Shown here: positions 26,606-35,994 of the stretch, piece after piece
Numbering within the stretch: position 1 is the first letter of the stretch
Layout: every line of letters begins with the position of its first letter
NCBI GenBank assembly: GCA_016794805.1
Contig: JAEUJI010000282.1
Location: 1-39,978 of the forward strand
Length of the DNA stretch: 39,978 bases
From: Gemmatimonadota bacterium
GTDB taxonomy: Bacteria; Gemmatimonadota; Gemmatimonadetes; Gemmatimonadales; GWC2-71-9
Reading direction: 5' to 3'
The notes under the pieces: generated by a model
Databases searched by the model: none
What the model was told of the DNA's origin: nothing
Seen by the model: only the letters and a program-made list of their open reading frames with translations
Program-made: the position numbers and the translations under genes

Positions 26606-28162
<1,557 letters not shown>

Positions 28163-28168
28163 CCGGCG

Positions 28169-29671
28169 ATGCTGGCCCAGGTCCTGTTCTTCGCCTTCCT
28201 CGGCAGCACCCTCGGCATCACCTGGTGGGCGGCGCGCCGCACCCGGACGGCGGACCACTTCTATTCCGCCGGCCGGAGCATCACCGCGGCGCAGAACGGC
28301 TTCGCCCTCGCCGGGGATTACATGAGCGCGTCTTCCTTCCTCGGGATCTCGGGGCTGGTGGCGCTCTCCGGATTCGACGGGCTGATCTACGCCGCCGGCG
28401 GGCTGGTGGGGTGGCCCATCGTGCTGTTCCTGATCGCGGAACCGCTCCGGAACCTGGGGAAGTACACCTTCGCGGACGTGCTGGCCGCGCGGCTGGCGCA
28501 GGTGCCGATCCGGGTCTCCGCCGCGGTGGGGACGCTCGCGACGGTGAGTCTCTACCTCATTGCGCAGATGGTCGGGGCAGGGGGGCTGATCCGGCTGCTC
28601 TTCGGCATCTCCTACGAGGCCGCGGTCGGGATCGTGGGGGCGGCGATGATCGCCTACGTCCTGTTCGGCGGCATGCTCGCGACCACGTGGGTGCAGATCG
28701 TGAAGGCGGCGCTGCTGCTGGCGGGGGCCGTCCTGCTCACCCTGCTGGTGCTGGCGGAGGTCGGGTTCTCGCCCCTCCGGCTGTTCGCGGCCGCCGCCGC
28801 GGTCAATGGTGACGCGGTCCTGGCCCCGGGGCGGCTGGTGGCCAATCCGCTGGATGCCGTCTCCCTTGGCCTGGCGCTCATGTTCGGCACCGCCGGGCTG
28901 CCGCACATCCTGATGCGCTTTTACACCGTCCCCGACGCCCGCGCCGCGCGCCGCTCGGTGTTCTACGCCACCGGCCTCATCGGCGGGTTCTTCCTGCTCA
29001 CCTTCGTCATCGGGTTCGGGGCCATGCACCTGGTCGGCCCCGACGCCATCCGCGCCGCCGACCCGGGTGGCAACATGGCCGCGCCACTCCTGGCCGTGCG
29101 GCTGGGAGGGACGGCACTGCTGGGCTTCGTGGGCGCGGTGGCGTTCGCCACCATCCTCGCGGTGGTGGCCGGGCTCACCCTCTCCGGGGCGGCGGCGCTG
29201 TCGCACGATCTCTGGGTCAACGTGGTGCGGGGCGGCACCGCGGATCCGGCGGAGGAGCTGCGGGTGGCGCGGGCCGCGACGTTCGTCCTGGGGCTGCTGG
29301 CGGTGGGGCTTGGCGTCCTGTTCAAGGGACAGAACGTGGCGTTCATGGTGGGGCTGGCGTTCGCGATCGCGGCCAGCGGCAACTTCCCGGCGCTGATGCT
29401 GGCGCTCTTCTGGCGGGGCACCACGACGGCGGGCGCGGTCGCGGCGATGCTCACCGGCACCCTCTCCACCGTGCTGCTGATCTACCTCTCACCCACGGTC
29501 CAGGTGGACCTCCTGCATCATCCGGCGGCCATCTTCCCGCTGCGCAATCCGGCGATCGTCTCGCTGCCGCTCGGGTTCCTGGCCGGCGTGCTGGTCTCGC
29601 TGGCCCGGCCCGACGCTGCCGAGGCGGGGCGGTACGAGGCGATGCAGCGCAAGGCCAGCCTGGGGGCCTAG
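28169..29671 (+). CDS. Sodium:solute symporter, ActP-like (copy 2)
   Basis: A 500-aa paralogue of the gene immediately upstream, sharing the same blocks in order: [56 protein letters not shown], and later [15 protein letters not shown]. Long stretches match copy 1 even at the DNA level, for example around 27047 and 28563, so this is a tandem duplication. It lacks its own DUF485 partner. Its stop interlocks with the convergent patatin gene in a single CTAG. Confidence 0.92.
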   Translation: MLAQVLFFAFLGSTLGITWWAARRTRTADHFYSAGRSITAAQNGFALAGDYMSASSFLGISGLVALSGFDGLIYAAGGLVGWPIVLFLIAEPLRNLGKYTFADVLAARLAQVPIRVSAAVGTLATVSLYLIAQMVGAGGLIRLLFGISYEAAVGIVGAAMIAYVLFGGMLATTWVQIVKAALLLAGAVLLTLLVLAEVGFSPLRLFAAAAAVNGDAVLAPGRLVANPLDAVSLGLALMFGTAGLPHILMRFYTVPDARAARRSVFYATGLIGGFFLLTFVIGFGAMHLVGPDAIRAADPGGNMAAPLLAVRLGGTALLGFVGAVAFATILAVVAGLTLSGAAALSHDLWVNVVRGGTADPAEELRVARAATFVLGLLAVGLGVLFKGQNVAFMVGLAFAIAASGNFPALMLALFWRGTTTAGAVAAMLTGTLSTVLLIYLSPTVQVDLLHHPAAIFPLRNPAIVSLPLGFLAGVLVSLARPDAAEAGRYEAMQRKASLGA

Positions 29672-31861: not shown

Positions 31862-32125
31862 ATGACCTACGTGATCACTGAAGCCTGCATCGGCGTCAAG
31901 GATCGCGCCTGCGTGGATGTCTGCCCGGTGGACTGCATTTACGAGGGCGAGGACCAGCTCTACATCCAGCCGGACGAGTGCATCGACTGCGGCGCCTGCG
32001 AGCCGGAGTGCCCGGTGAACGCGATCTTCCCGGAAGAGGACGTCCCCACCAACCAGCAGGCGTTCATCGCCAAGAATAAGGACATCTTCAACAGCGACAC
32101 CCCGCCGGGAAAGCCGAAGAAGTAG
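31862..32125 (+). CDS. Seven-iron-type ferredoxin (FdxA/FdxC-like)
   Basis: An 87-aa ferredoxin with two cluster sites. C9, C17 and C21 ([17 protein letters not shown]) suit a [3Fe-4S] cluster with a late cysteine. C40, C43, C46 and C50 ([12 protein letters not shown]), with C25, complete a [4Fe-4S] site. IGVKDRAC, where the extra second cysteine is missing, matches the type found in mycobacteria and Thermus. The ATG has GGAG 10 nt upstream. It stands alone, with a hairpin terminator about 50 nt after its stop. Its electron partner is unknown. Confidence 0.93.
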
Positions 32126-32367: not shown

Positions 32368-33582
32368 CTATCCAGGGCGGCCCAGACTGGTCAGGAACTC
32401 GGCCAGGAGGGCGGTGGCCGCCTCGGGCCTTTCCATGGGGGTGAGGTGACCGGCCGCTGGCACCACGGCCAGCCGTGACCCAGGGATCGCGTCGGCCATC
32501 TGCTGGGCGCCCTGCCGGGGGGTGATCTGGTCTTCCTCGCCGACCACGACGAGGGTGGGGATGTCCCCCAGGGCACTGAGGAGGGGGGTGCTGTCGGGAC
32601 GATCCCGCAGGGCGGTGATGGCGCCCAGGATGCCCGCGACGGGGGTGGCTTCCATCATCCGCCGGACCCGGTCCACCAGTGCCGGGTTGTCGGCGGCGAC
32701 ACCCGCGGCCAGCATCTTGGGAAGCATCGCCGCGGCGATGGCAGCCGAGCCGCCCTCCCGGGCCTGCGCCGCCGAGGCATCCCGCGCCCGGCGCAGGTCC
32801 GCGGTGTCCGCCTCGGAACGGGTATCCATCAGGACCAGCCCGCGCACCCGCTCCCGCGCCCGGCGCAGCATCTCGAACGCCACGTACCCGCCCATCGAAA
32901 GCCCGCACAGCACCGCCCGCTCCACCCCAAGGGTGTTGAGCAGGGCGAGGAGGTCGTCGGCGTAGGTGGCCATGCTGTAGCCGAGGTCGGGAGCGTCCGA
33001 CTGGCCCATCCCGCGCAGGTCCGGCGCGATCCGCATCCACCCCTCCAGATGCGCCATCGGGTAGTCCCAGATGGAATGATCCAGCGGATAGCCGTGGATG
33101 AAGAGCACCGCCGGTCCCTGGCCGCGCACGTCCACGGCGAGGTTGACGCCGTTTACCGCGACCCGGCGGAGGTTTCCGGGGAGCGGCTTGTCCGCCATGA
33201 CCTGGGGGAGGGCCTCGGGCACCGGGATCGGGCGTCCCTGCGCGTCCACGCAAACGAAGACCAGCTCCGCGGTGGCGAGCAGCGAATCATCCCGCAGGCG
33301 CCGGGCAGTCTGGCGCAGGGTGAAGCTGGTACGGCCGAGGTGCACCAGCACCTGCGCGAAGCGGAGGATATCGCCGGGGAAGGCGGGGGCGTGGTATTCG
33401 ACGGTGGACTTCCGGACGGCGGGCCAGGCCCCCTGACGGGTGAAGAAGTCCATCCCCGGGCCGCGGGCGAGCATCTCCCACCGGGCCCGTTCGAACAGCG
33501 CGACGAACGAGGCCTGGTTCAGGTGCCCGTAGGCGTCGCACTCGTCGGGATAGACCGTCAGATCGATTTCGGCGGGGGCCAC
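32368..33582 (-). CDS. Hotdog thioesterase fused to an alpha/beta hydrolase
   Basis: A 404-aa two-domain protein. Residues about 5-135 are a 4HBT hotdog domain with D16, AYGHLN (17-22) and VEYHAPAFPGD, the pattern of acyl-CoA thioesterases. Residues about 140-400 are an alpha/beta hydrolase with HGYPLD (163-168), nucleophile S229 in GLSMGG, acid D351 in GEEDQITP and H379 in AAGHLTP. All catalytic residues are present in both parts, so both should be active. The junction has no frameshift sign. The fusion could process an acyl thioester in two steps, but the substrate is unknown. The start overlaps the end of the next gene upstream by 25 nt. Confidence 0.9.
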   Translation of the reverse strand: MAPAEIDLTVYPDECDAYGHLNQASFVALFERARWEMLARGPGMDFFTRQGAWPAVRKSTVEYHAPAFPGDILRFAQVLVHLGRTSFTLRQTARRLRDDSLLATAELVFVCVDAQGRPIPVPEALPQVMADKPLPGNLRRVAVNGVNLAVDVRGQGPAVLFIHGYPLDHSIWDYPMAHLEGWMRIAPDLRGMGQSDAPDLGYSMATYADDLLALLNTLGVERAVLCGLSMGGYVAFEMLRRARERVRGLVLMDTRSEADTADLRRARDASAAQAREGGSAAIAAAMLPKMLAAGVAADNPALVDRVRRMMEATPVAGILGAITALRDRPDSTPLLSALGDIPTLVVVGEEDQITPRQGAQQMADAIPGSRLAVVPAAGHLTPMERPEAATALLAEFLTSLGRPG

Positions 33583-34592
33583 AGCGACTCCGCGTAACGG
33601 TGCGCGTCCGCCATCACCGGGTGATCCGACGACGAAGCGACGAGCCTCGGGTCAAAAGTATGCCAGAACCAGAGATGCCGGTAGGAACCGGCGAGTGACC
33701 GGAGCGCGGCACAGGCCTTGGCGCTGTAGGTCACATCGAGGGTGATGCCCGACGCCGCGAACCGCTCCATCGCCTCGCGGCAGGCCGGAGTGGCGTGGCC
33801 ATAGCCAGCGCCCAGCTGGTCGCCCCGCAGCAGCAGCGAGGCGCGCGCGGCGGGCGCGGAGGCGCCATGCCGCGTGAGCAGGGCAAGGGTCTGCTCCGCG
33901 AGACGGAGCAGCCGGCGCCGGGTGGTGAACCAGGGATCGGTCACCCGCACCGCGACGATCGTCGTGTCCCAGCCCAGCAGCCATGCCCCCACCAGCAGCC
34001 CCGCGGCGGTACCGCCGGAGCCGTAGGGCACCACGATGGCATCGGGGCGCGGCGCACCGGCCGCTTCCTGTTGCCGCGCCGACTCGAGCAGGGCATTGAC
34101 GCTGCCGAAGGACGCGAGCGGGGTGGCGCCGCCGGCCGGGAGCCAGGTCACCGGGCCGCCAGCCCGCGCCGCGCGCCACGCCCGTGCCACCACCAGGGGC
34201 AGGTGCCAGCGGCGTGCGGCCAGGTGCACCCCGGCGCCGGCCAGGGTGGCGGCGAGCGCGCCGGCCACCGCCGGGGTCCACGGCTGGGGGAAGAGCGCCA
34301 CTTCGGCCCGCTGACCAGTGCCTCGAGTCACCGTCGCGAGCGCGGCGCACCAGGTGGAGCCGTAACCGCCCATGGTCACGATCCGCGGCCCGGCGGCGGG
34401 GAGCAGCCATTCCAGCGCCCGCAGCTTGTTGCCGCCGAACGCCGCGCCGTTCCGGTCGTCCCGCTTGACCAGCAGCGTCTCCAGGCCGAGCGTGCCTGCC
34501 AGCGCCGGATGCGACTCGAGCGGCGCGGGAAACACGCCGAGGGGGCGGCGCGGCGGCGGGTCGCGGAGCAGCTCGAGCAGCGGCAGGGTCAT
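33558..34592 (-). CDS. PLP-dependent ACC-deaminase / D-cysteine desulfhydrase family enzyme
   Basis: A 344-aa fold-type II PLP enzyme. The lysine K56 in FGGNKLRALEWLL is the cofactor site. GGYGSTWCAALATVTR (substrate loop) and VPYGSGGTAAGLLVGAWL (phosphate-binding loop) follow in the usual order. The family includes D-cysteine desulfhydrase and 1-aminocyclopropane-1-carboxylate deaminase, which sequence alone cannot separate here. The start ATG at 34592 is chosen over an upstream in-frame ATG because the longer N-terminus is not conserved-looking. It overlaps the hotdog-hydrolase gene by 25 nt. Confidence 0.88.
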   Translation of the reverse strand: MTLPLLELLRDPPPRRPLGVFPAPLESHPALAGTLGLETLLVKRDDRNGAAFGGNKLRALEWLLPAAGPRIVTMGGYGSTWCAALATVTRGTGQRAEVALFPQPWTPAVAGALAATLAGAGVHLAARRWHLPLVVARAWRAARAGGPVTWLPAGGATPLASFGSVNALLESARQQEAAGAPRPDAIVVPYGSGGTAAGLLVGAWLLGWDTTIVAVRVTDPWFTTRRRLLRLAEQTLALLTRHGASAPAARASLLLRGDQLGAGYGHATPACREAMERFAASGITLDVTYSAKACAALRSLAGSYRHLWFWHTFDPRLVASSSDHPVMADAHRYAESLWPPPKSI

Positions 34593-34676
34593 GGGATCGT
34601 GAGCCCGGGAGCGGGTTGGGGATCGTGGATGATAGACTAGATTCCCGCTCACCCGGAACCCGGTATGAGGAGTCCC

Positions 34677-34847
34677 ATGAAGCCCGCGACCGATTACATC
34701 CGCCATGCCGCCCGGCTGGCGCGCAAGATCCAGCTGGATGCCGCCATGGGCGGCAAGCCCGAGCCCGACGCCGAGTTCTACAAGACCCTCTCCAAGGCGC
34801 TGGACGAGATCGCCGCGGGCCTGGAACTGGTGAGCGCCCGTGAGTGA
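34677..34847 (+). CDS. Small protein of unknown function (56 aa)
   Basis: A 56-aa soluble, helical-looking protein (MKPATDYIRHAARLARKI, then FYKTLSKALDEIAAGLELV). I do not recognise the family. The ATG at 34677 has GGAG about 5 nt upstream, better than an ATG 12 nt earlier. Its stop overlaps the RNase D start by 8 nt, so it is probably co-translated with rnd. Its divergent neighbour is the PLP enzyme. Confidence 0.7.
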   Translation: MKPATDYIRHAARLARKIQLDAAMGGKPEPDAEFYKTLSKALDEIAAGLELVSARE

Positions 34848-35994
34848 ACGGGCACTCGAGGGGCACCTCTATCTCGACTCGCAGGACGCGTTCGACCGCT
34901 TTGCCGCCGGCCTCGAGGGCGAGCCGCTGCTCGCGGTGGACACCGAGGCGGCCAGCTTCCATCGGTACCGCGACCGGATCTACCTGATCCAGCTCTCCAC
35001 CCGGGACACGACGGCGATCATCGATCCGCTGGCGGTCCCCGAGCTCGGCGCACTGGGCCGGCTGCTGGCCGACCCGGCGGTGGAGACGCTGTTCCACGAC
35101 GCCGACTACGACCTCCGCATCCTGCACCGGGACTATGGCTTCACCGCCAGTCACCTGTTCGATACCCGGATCGCGGCCCAGCTGCTCAACGAGCCCGGCA
35201 TCGGGCTCGCCGCGCTGCTGGAGAAGTATCTCGGCGTCACCCTGGACAAGAAGTACCAGCGCGCCGACTGGTCGGTGCGCCCGCTCATCCCCGAGATGCT
35301 GGCCTACGCCGCCGGCGACACCCGCCACCTGCCGCAGCTGCGGGACATCCTCAAGGAGCAGCTGACGGCGGCGGGGCGGTGGCACTGGGCGGAGGAGGAG
35401 TTTGCCCTGCTGAACCAGGTGCGCTGGAGCGTCAGCGGCCCGCCGGAAGAGGCGTACCTCCGGCTCAAGGGGGCGCGCACCCTCCGCGGCCATCAGTACG
35501 CGGTGCTCAGGGAGCTGTACGCCTGGCGGGAAAATGCGGCCAGCCAGCTGGACCGGGCGCCGTTCCGGGTGCTGATGAACGAGGCGATGGTGACGATCGC
35601 CAAGGCGATGCCGGCGGACGAGACGGCGCTCAAGGAGCTCAAGACGCTCTCGCCCGATCAGCTGCGCCGCCGCGGCGCGGAGCTGCTGGCGGCGGTGAAG
35701 CGCGGTGTGGAGGCCCCGGCGGAGAGCCTGCCGGTGTTCGAACGGACCCGCCGGCCGCCGCCGGACCTGGCCTACGAGGCCCGGCTGGAGCGGCTCAAGG
35801 CGGTGCGCAACAAGGTGGCGGAGCAGATTCCGCTGGCGCCGGGAGTGCTCTGCGCCAACGGGATGCTGGAGGCGATCAGCCGGCTGGAACCGAAGAGCGT
35901 CGCCGACCTGGCGCAGGTGGAGGGGATGCGCCGGTGGCAGATCGAGGTGTTAGGCGAGGCGCTGGTGCAGGCGGTGGCGGTCAAGGCCCCGTAG
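34840..35994 (+). CDS. rnd: Ribonuclease D
   Basis: 3'-5' exoribonuclease that matures tRNA and other stable RNAs. The 384-aa product has a DEDDy exonuclease domain (about 10-180): D34 and E36 in VDTEA, D91 in HDADYDL, Y156 and D160 in YAAGDTRHL. Two HRDC-like helical regions follow (about 205-290 and 300-384). Length and motifs are standard. The start is GTG at 34840, overlapping the 56-aa gene. A near-perfect palindrome begins at its stop codon. Confidence 0.95.
   Translation: MSERALEGHLYLDSQDAFDRFAAGLEGEPLLAVDTEAASFHRYRDRIYLIQLSTRDTTAIIDPLAVPELGALGRLLADPAVETLFHDADYDLRILHRDYGFTASHLFDTRIAAQLLNEPGIGLAALLEKYLGVTLDKKYQRADWSVRPLIPEMLAYAAGDTRHLPQLRDILKEQLTAAGRWHWAEEEFALLNQVRWSVSGPPEEAYLRLKGARTLRGHQYAVLRELYAWRENAASQLDRAPFRVLMNEAMVTIAKAMPADETALKELKTLSPDQLRRRGAELLAAVKRGVEAPAESLPVFERTRRPPPDLAYEARLERLKAVRNKVAEQIPLAPGVLCANGMLEAISRLEPKSVADLAQVEGMRRWQIEVLGEALVQAVAVKAP

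Follow-up and report, generated by a model that had tools for sequence, protein, structure and literature searches.

The window analysed here, a 39,978-nt stretch of DNA from a member of the Gemmatimonadota, includes a gene for a protein in which, judged by its sequence, a hotdog domain of the YbgC type is fused to an alpha/beta hydrolase resembling esterases and enol-lactonases. The explanation that fits best overall, and which we regard as probable though well short of assured, is that the fusion arose once and that its product is a two-site hydrolase predicted to act on a thioester and on an ester or lactone, in an oligomer set by the hotdog domain. The single origin would lie in the ancestor of two families (f1 and f3) of one order, the Gemmatimonadales, by merger of two tightly packed neighbouring genes.

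Domain architecture and chromosomal context

The features of the fused gene and its surroundings are listed in Table 1. The initial annotation placed a hotdog domain and an alpha/beta hydrolase in one 404-aa protein; its coordinates were right and both Pfam domains lie above their cut-offs, though it gave no strand. The gene runs along the minus strand from a GTG start codon. Membership of 4HBT_2 (PF13279; residues 12-125) is supported by 71.4 bits against a gathering cut-off of 25.5, and that of Abhydrolase_1 (PF00561; residues 157-386) by 109.3 bits against a cut-off of 25.8, together with a Ser-Asp-His triad. An AlphaFold2 model made with a 13-sequence alignment (mean pLDDT 89.4, pTM 0.71) has both folds well formed. 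The best PDB matches of the model are to the hydrolase half, and none of the 50 PDB rows shown is a genuine match to the full-length protein, the three long alignments among them being to HaloTag-GFP chimeras with an rmsd near 22.

Table 1. Features of the fused gene and of the slot that it occupies in the window
Feature	Position	Strand	Basis
Fusion gene, hotdog thioesterase (4HBT_2) + alpha/beta hydrolase (Abhydrolase_1)	32368..33582	-	ORF, Pfam
Hotdog half, residues 6-125, catalytic Asp16 in DECDAYGHLNQ	33208..33567	-	Pfam, alignments, model strand/helix pattern
Linker, residues 126-140	33163..33207	-	Low conservation
Alpha/beta hydrolase half, residues 141-400, triad Ser229/Asp351/His379	32383..33162	-	Pfam, alignments, structure match
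PLP-dependent enzyme gene (PALP; D-cysteine desulfhydrase / ACC deaminase-like)	33558..34706	-	Pfam, NCBIfam
Presumed RNase D-like gene, divergent flank of slot	34840..35994	+	ORF, recurrence beside slot
Ferredoxin-like gene, convergent flank of slot	31889..32125	+	Cys motifs; start approximate

Counts of locus rows given in the text leave out repeat genome copies (L014, L016, L025, L027-L029, L037, L046-L048, L136, L157, L158 and L161), the presumed repeats L041, L043 and L045 (L041 is a near copy of L042 from another genome), own-genome paralogues (L002-L005), weak or cut loci (L032-L034, L113 and L153) and most loci from outside the phylum, 12 of L049-L114 being kept.

The gene lies in a slot bounded by the ferredoxin-like gene and by a gene whose product we take, from its sequence, to be RNase D-like. 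Both flanks are found beside 39 of the 51 rows with the fused form, 7 of the 8 with the two halves as a separate pair, 14 of the 16 with the hotdog alone and 21 of the 41 with the hydrolase alone, the last group including loci from other phyla and some of the loci being short. Elsewhere in the window, two closely similar symporter-like ORFs lie in tandem 6 nt apart on the plus strand (26606-28162 and 28169-29671) and, from their translations, are likely to be a tandem duplication.

Origin of the fusion and loss of either half

At eight loci of family f2, which belongs to the same order (L132, L163 and L176-L181), hotdog and hydrolase are encoded by separate neighbouring genes, which makes the protein in the window a Rosetta-stone fusion whose two hydrolase parts are linked genes elsewhere. 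In five of the eight pairs (L163, L176, L177, L178 and L179) the hotdog stop and hydrolase start overlap by 4 nt (ATGA or GTGA), in L132 they are separated by a single in-frame stop and 15 nt or so, and the gaps in L180 and L181 are longer. The tight pairing of the unfused genes in this slot gives good support to a functional link between the two halves.

Quick trees, made without bootstraps and with L171 and L129 left out, placed the fused sequences in one clade for each half. For the hydrolase half the clade has 62 rows, 49 fused and 13 hydrolase-only (SH-aLRT 98), and for the hotdog half it has 51 rows, 49 fused and two hotdog-only (SH-aLRT 100). L026, one of these 13 rows without the hotdog, is truncated at the end of its contig, and its hotdog part is likely to be on another contig (L134). 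Another, L049, is on a 3.2-kb contig labelled Nonomuraea (NZ_JABCPZ010000448.1) with its hydrolase inside the Gemmatimonadales clade, suggesting contamination or transfer. To account for the other 11 (L050, L137-L141 and L148-L152), the hydrolase tree requires the hotdog half to have been lost about seven times separately, and a constraint setting the fused sequences (with L026) apart from the hydrolase-only rows was rejected (p-AU 8.9e-5), the group having been picked after the tree was seen. The reciprocal loss is represented by a hotdog gene alone in the slot (L133:6016-6384, minus strand), approximately 60% identical to the hotdog half in the window, with no match to the hydrolase. The trees favour a single fusion, after which the hotdog half would have been lost repeatedly and the hydrolase half once; repeated fusion in place of loss is less simple, because of the hotdog tree. 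The slot, fixed in the chromosome of one order, offers a natural series from overlapping genes to a fused gene to later losses of either half, and the fused, split and single-half versions make the function of the fusion directly testable by comparison.

Two further arrangements were seen. At L182-L184 and L175 the PLP gene and the hotdog are adjacent with no hydrolase, and every pairing of the three genes is thus present in the slot; at L195 (1715-2441, minus strand) the hydrolase match is in two pieces, possibly a frameshifted or decaying copy.

The persistence of hydrolase-only forms in many genomes and of hotdog-only forms in others counts against the two-site explanation, and is what the strongest rival would predict, namely that these are two independent clean-up hydrolases with unrelated substrates which came to share an operon and then a polypeptide for co-expression or stability only. 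The nesting of losses within the fused clade also speaks for this rival, which we consider a serious contender though a good deal less probable than not. Against it, both halves recur next to the same PLP gene in members of two families, and at tight spacing, which suggests more than chance co-expression. The idea put forward in the initial annotation, that the two sites act in sequence on one substrate derived from an acyl-CoA, is affected by both kinds of evidence. A functional link between the halves is well supported by the tight unfused pair, and the two sites may act in sequence on a shared substrate. An obligatory two-step route is argued against, because either half has been lost in relatives and several of these losses are nested in the fused clade.

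Conservation of the two catalytic sites

The motifs of both folds had been described as complete, and the catalytic residues are indeed conserved almost without exception. Asp16 aligns with the second Asp of the EDTDAGGVVYH motif in solved YbgC proteins, and so supplies the catalytic Asp in an N-terminal D-x-x-G motif by which YbgC/FadM-like thioesterases are recognised. Ser229 (in GLSMGG), Asp351 (in EEDQITP) and His379 (in AGHLTP) are in register with the triad of the Thermogutta esterase 4uhc/4uhh. Among the 30 distinct fused relatives, Asp16, Ser229 and Asp351 are each present in all 30, and His379 is invariant in the 13-row alignment. When unfused forms are included, Asp16 is kept in all 75 rows and Ser229 in all 100, Asp351 is found in 99 of 100 (one gap) and His379 in 98 of 100 (one Glu, one gap). 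Mean pairwise identity over the 30 distinct fused sequences is 58% for the hotdog half and 56% for the hydrolase half, compared with 26% for the linker. Comparison of the window with a relative in the same genus (G001) gives dN/dS values of 0.13 (hotdog) and 0.20 (hydrolase), which are rough and of which only the low level is meaningful as dS is near 1. Both sites most likely work.

We take Asp18 of Haemophilus influenzae YbgC to be the second Asp of the EDTDAGG-type motif, and hence the residue aligned with Asp16. The D18N variant of that enzyme was reported to be unable to hydrolyse short acyl-CoAs (PMC2698920). By analogy, the hotdog half would most likely hydrolyse a short acyl-CoA thioester as YbgC does, and the esterase half, through Ser229-Asp351-His379, would cleave a small ester or lactone. 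The same source states that the oligomeric form is set by the hotdog domains and that YbgC-like ones are probably tetramers (PMC2698920); the hotdog half should make the fused protein a dimer or tetramer and bring the two kinds of site close together.

That last property raises the question of whether the hotdog half serves mainly as a CoA-binding or oligomerisation scaffold, with the esterase half alone catalytic. H20 and N22, which adjoin Asp16, each vary in 8 of the 51 fused rows. Some members may thus have an altered hotdog site, and a scaffold would fit this variation as it would the role of hotdog domains in oligomer formation. Asp16, however, does not vary in any row, fused or not, and the rate of evolution is no higher in the hotdog half than in its partner; we therefore think it unlikely that the hotdog half is mainly a scaffold.

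The neighbouring PLP enzyme gene

The overlap of 25 nt with a PLP enzyme gene reported in the initial annotation is exact (33558-33582). The product of this gene belongs to the PALP family (82.4 against a cut-off of 35) and falls far below the cut-off for TIGR01275, D-cysteine desulfhydrase / ACC deaminase (93 against 289.4); profile scans reached no named subfamily, just general PALP. A PLP match adjoins the gene in 15 of the 51 rows with the fused form, where one match is a remnant, and in 6 of the 8 separate-pair rows, 12 of the 41 hydrolase-only rows and 4 of the 16 hotdog-only rows. In 36 of these 37 it lies <60 nt from the next match, and the order shows the linkage in both of its families. 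In the same-genus relative G001 (L006:1014-1530), the PLP gene has been cut down to its two ends by a large internal deletion. The copy in the window is intact and has GSTW at a site where GSTH is found in at least 80% of the 37 aligned PLP rows from the slot, and the PLP gene of this genus may be losing or changing its function. The counts, the G001 remnant and the GSTW motif together indicate that the link is old and yet is being lost in the genus to which the window belongs.

This linkage of two hydrolases with a PLP enzyme, in a poorly studied phylum, invites the proposal that PLP enzyme, thioesterase and esterase act in turn on one sulfur- or amino-acid-derived metabolite. The recurrence and close spacing of the PLP gene beside all four arrangements are in keeping with such a three-enzyme pathway; most fused loci, however, have no PLP gene, and in the genus of the window it is a deletion remnant in one member and departs from a conserved motif in the other, so that the proposal is doubtful. 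More speculative, and in our view improbable, is an undescribed Gemmatimonadales pathway in which the product of a PLP enzyme of a new subfamily is processed by way of a CoA thioester and of an ester or lactone; the two hydrolytic steps, those of thioesterase and esterase, would have been coupled first by overlapping genes and then by fusion. If that were so, genomes missing one part would be those of organisms running part of the route.

Distribution of the fused form

A full-length fused match was found in 20 of 41 close genomes; the remaining 21 comprise one without a match, one in which the halves lie at two contig ends, and otherwise genomes that match a single half or a paralogue. Across the phylum, 36 of 298 sampled Gemmatimonadota genomes have a full-length fused match, counted as rows spanning about residues 6-397 or more. 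This figure does not include G218, where the fused match is interrupted by a contig end, or G251, where the match spans both halves with a stop between them. Both halves are in one open frame in 51 locus rows, 47 of them distinct after repeats were removed. The proviso in the initial annotation, that the fusion might occur in no other genome or be frameshifted at the join, therefore falls away. An assembly or frameshift artefact joining two genes can be set aside with near certainty, as the identical join in one open frame is present in genomes of many genera, one of them in only 5 contigs (G019), and nothing was found in favour of an artefact, fragmented as the window's own assembly is (377 contigs).

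The search for fused forms outside the phylum used this one sequence against 84,980 species, so that distant or independent fusions would escape it. Of 469 confirmed places the best 80 were kept, and the fused form is present in 12 of these, all labelled Gemmatimonad-. The other 68 of these 80 have no hotdog match; one of them, L048, is apparently a fused gene cut at a contig end, as L134 from the same genome suggests. A possible planctomycete fusion (L099, matched from residue 54) was rejected, having no hotdog match. Among plasmids, none of 1536 matched records covers 80% of the query in one place.

Relation to known proteins

Both halves belong to well-known superfamilies, and fusions of each kind have precedents. 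Hotdog domains occur in Rosetta-stone fusions (FabZ-LpxC, HAD-hotdog and 3HCDH-hotdog) whose parts are separate adjacent genes or fused, depending on the genome; in contrast to the protein described here, none of those in the available part of the text has an alpha/beta hydrolase partner, and abhydrolase, PF00561 and lipase do not appear in it (PMC516016). PcaD-like hydrolases are also known from two-enzyme fusions (PcaCD / PcaDC in NCBIfam), with carboxymuconolactone decarboxylase, rather than a hotdog domain, as the partner. For the pairing of hotdog and alpha/beta hydrolase itself, no described family or paper was found in the open-access literature searched, in agreement with the earlier view that no standard family has this architecture.

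Neither half reaches a named NCBIfam function, which also counts against the two-site explanation. The hotdog half resembles YbgC, the tol-pal-associated acyl-CoA thioesterase (PDB 1s5u and 5kl9), in its fold, in a catalytic Asp at the same place and in a FERAR/YERAR-type helix. It differs in being below the cut-offs for both YbgC/FadM (TIGR00051; 48.1 against 68.7) and YbgC (TIGR02799; 55.3 against 141.35), in being fused and in lying in the slot between the RNase D-like and ferredoxin genes. The genome of the window has a separate paralogue that exceeds the YbgC/FadM cut-off (L153), and with this paralogue kept and the fused hotdog below the cut-offs, the possibility that the latter is a YbgC moved out of the tol-pal cluster is unsupported.

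The best NCBIfam match of the hydrolase half is PcaD, 3-oxoadipate enol-lactonase (TIGR02427), at 167.5 against an equivalog cut-off of 255.85. TtEst2 (PMC4655241), a different enzyme, was set aside as a source for residue mapping. The closest solved relative of the hydrolase half, which aligns with it from end to end, is the Thermogutta terrifontis esterase (E 6e-55; in the match to the model, rmsd 1.6 and 38% identity), which, unlike the fused protein, is a stand-alone chain of 282 residues with no hotdog domain.
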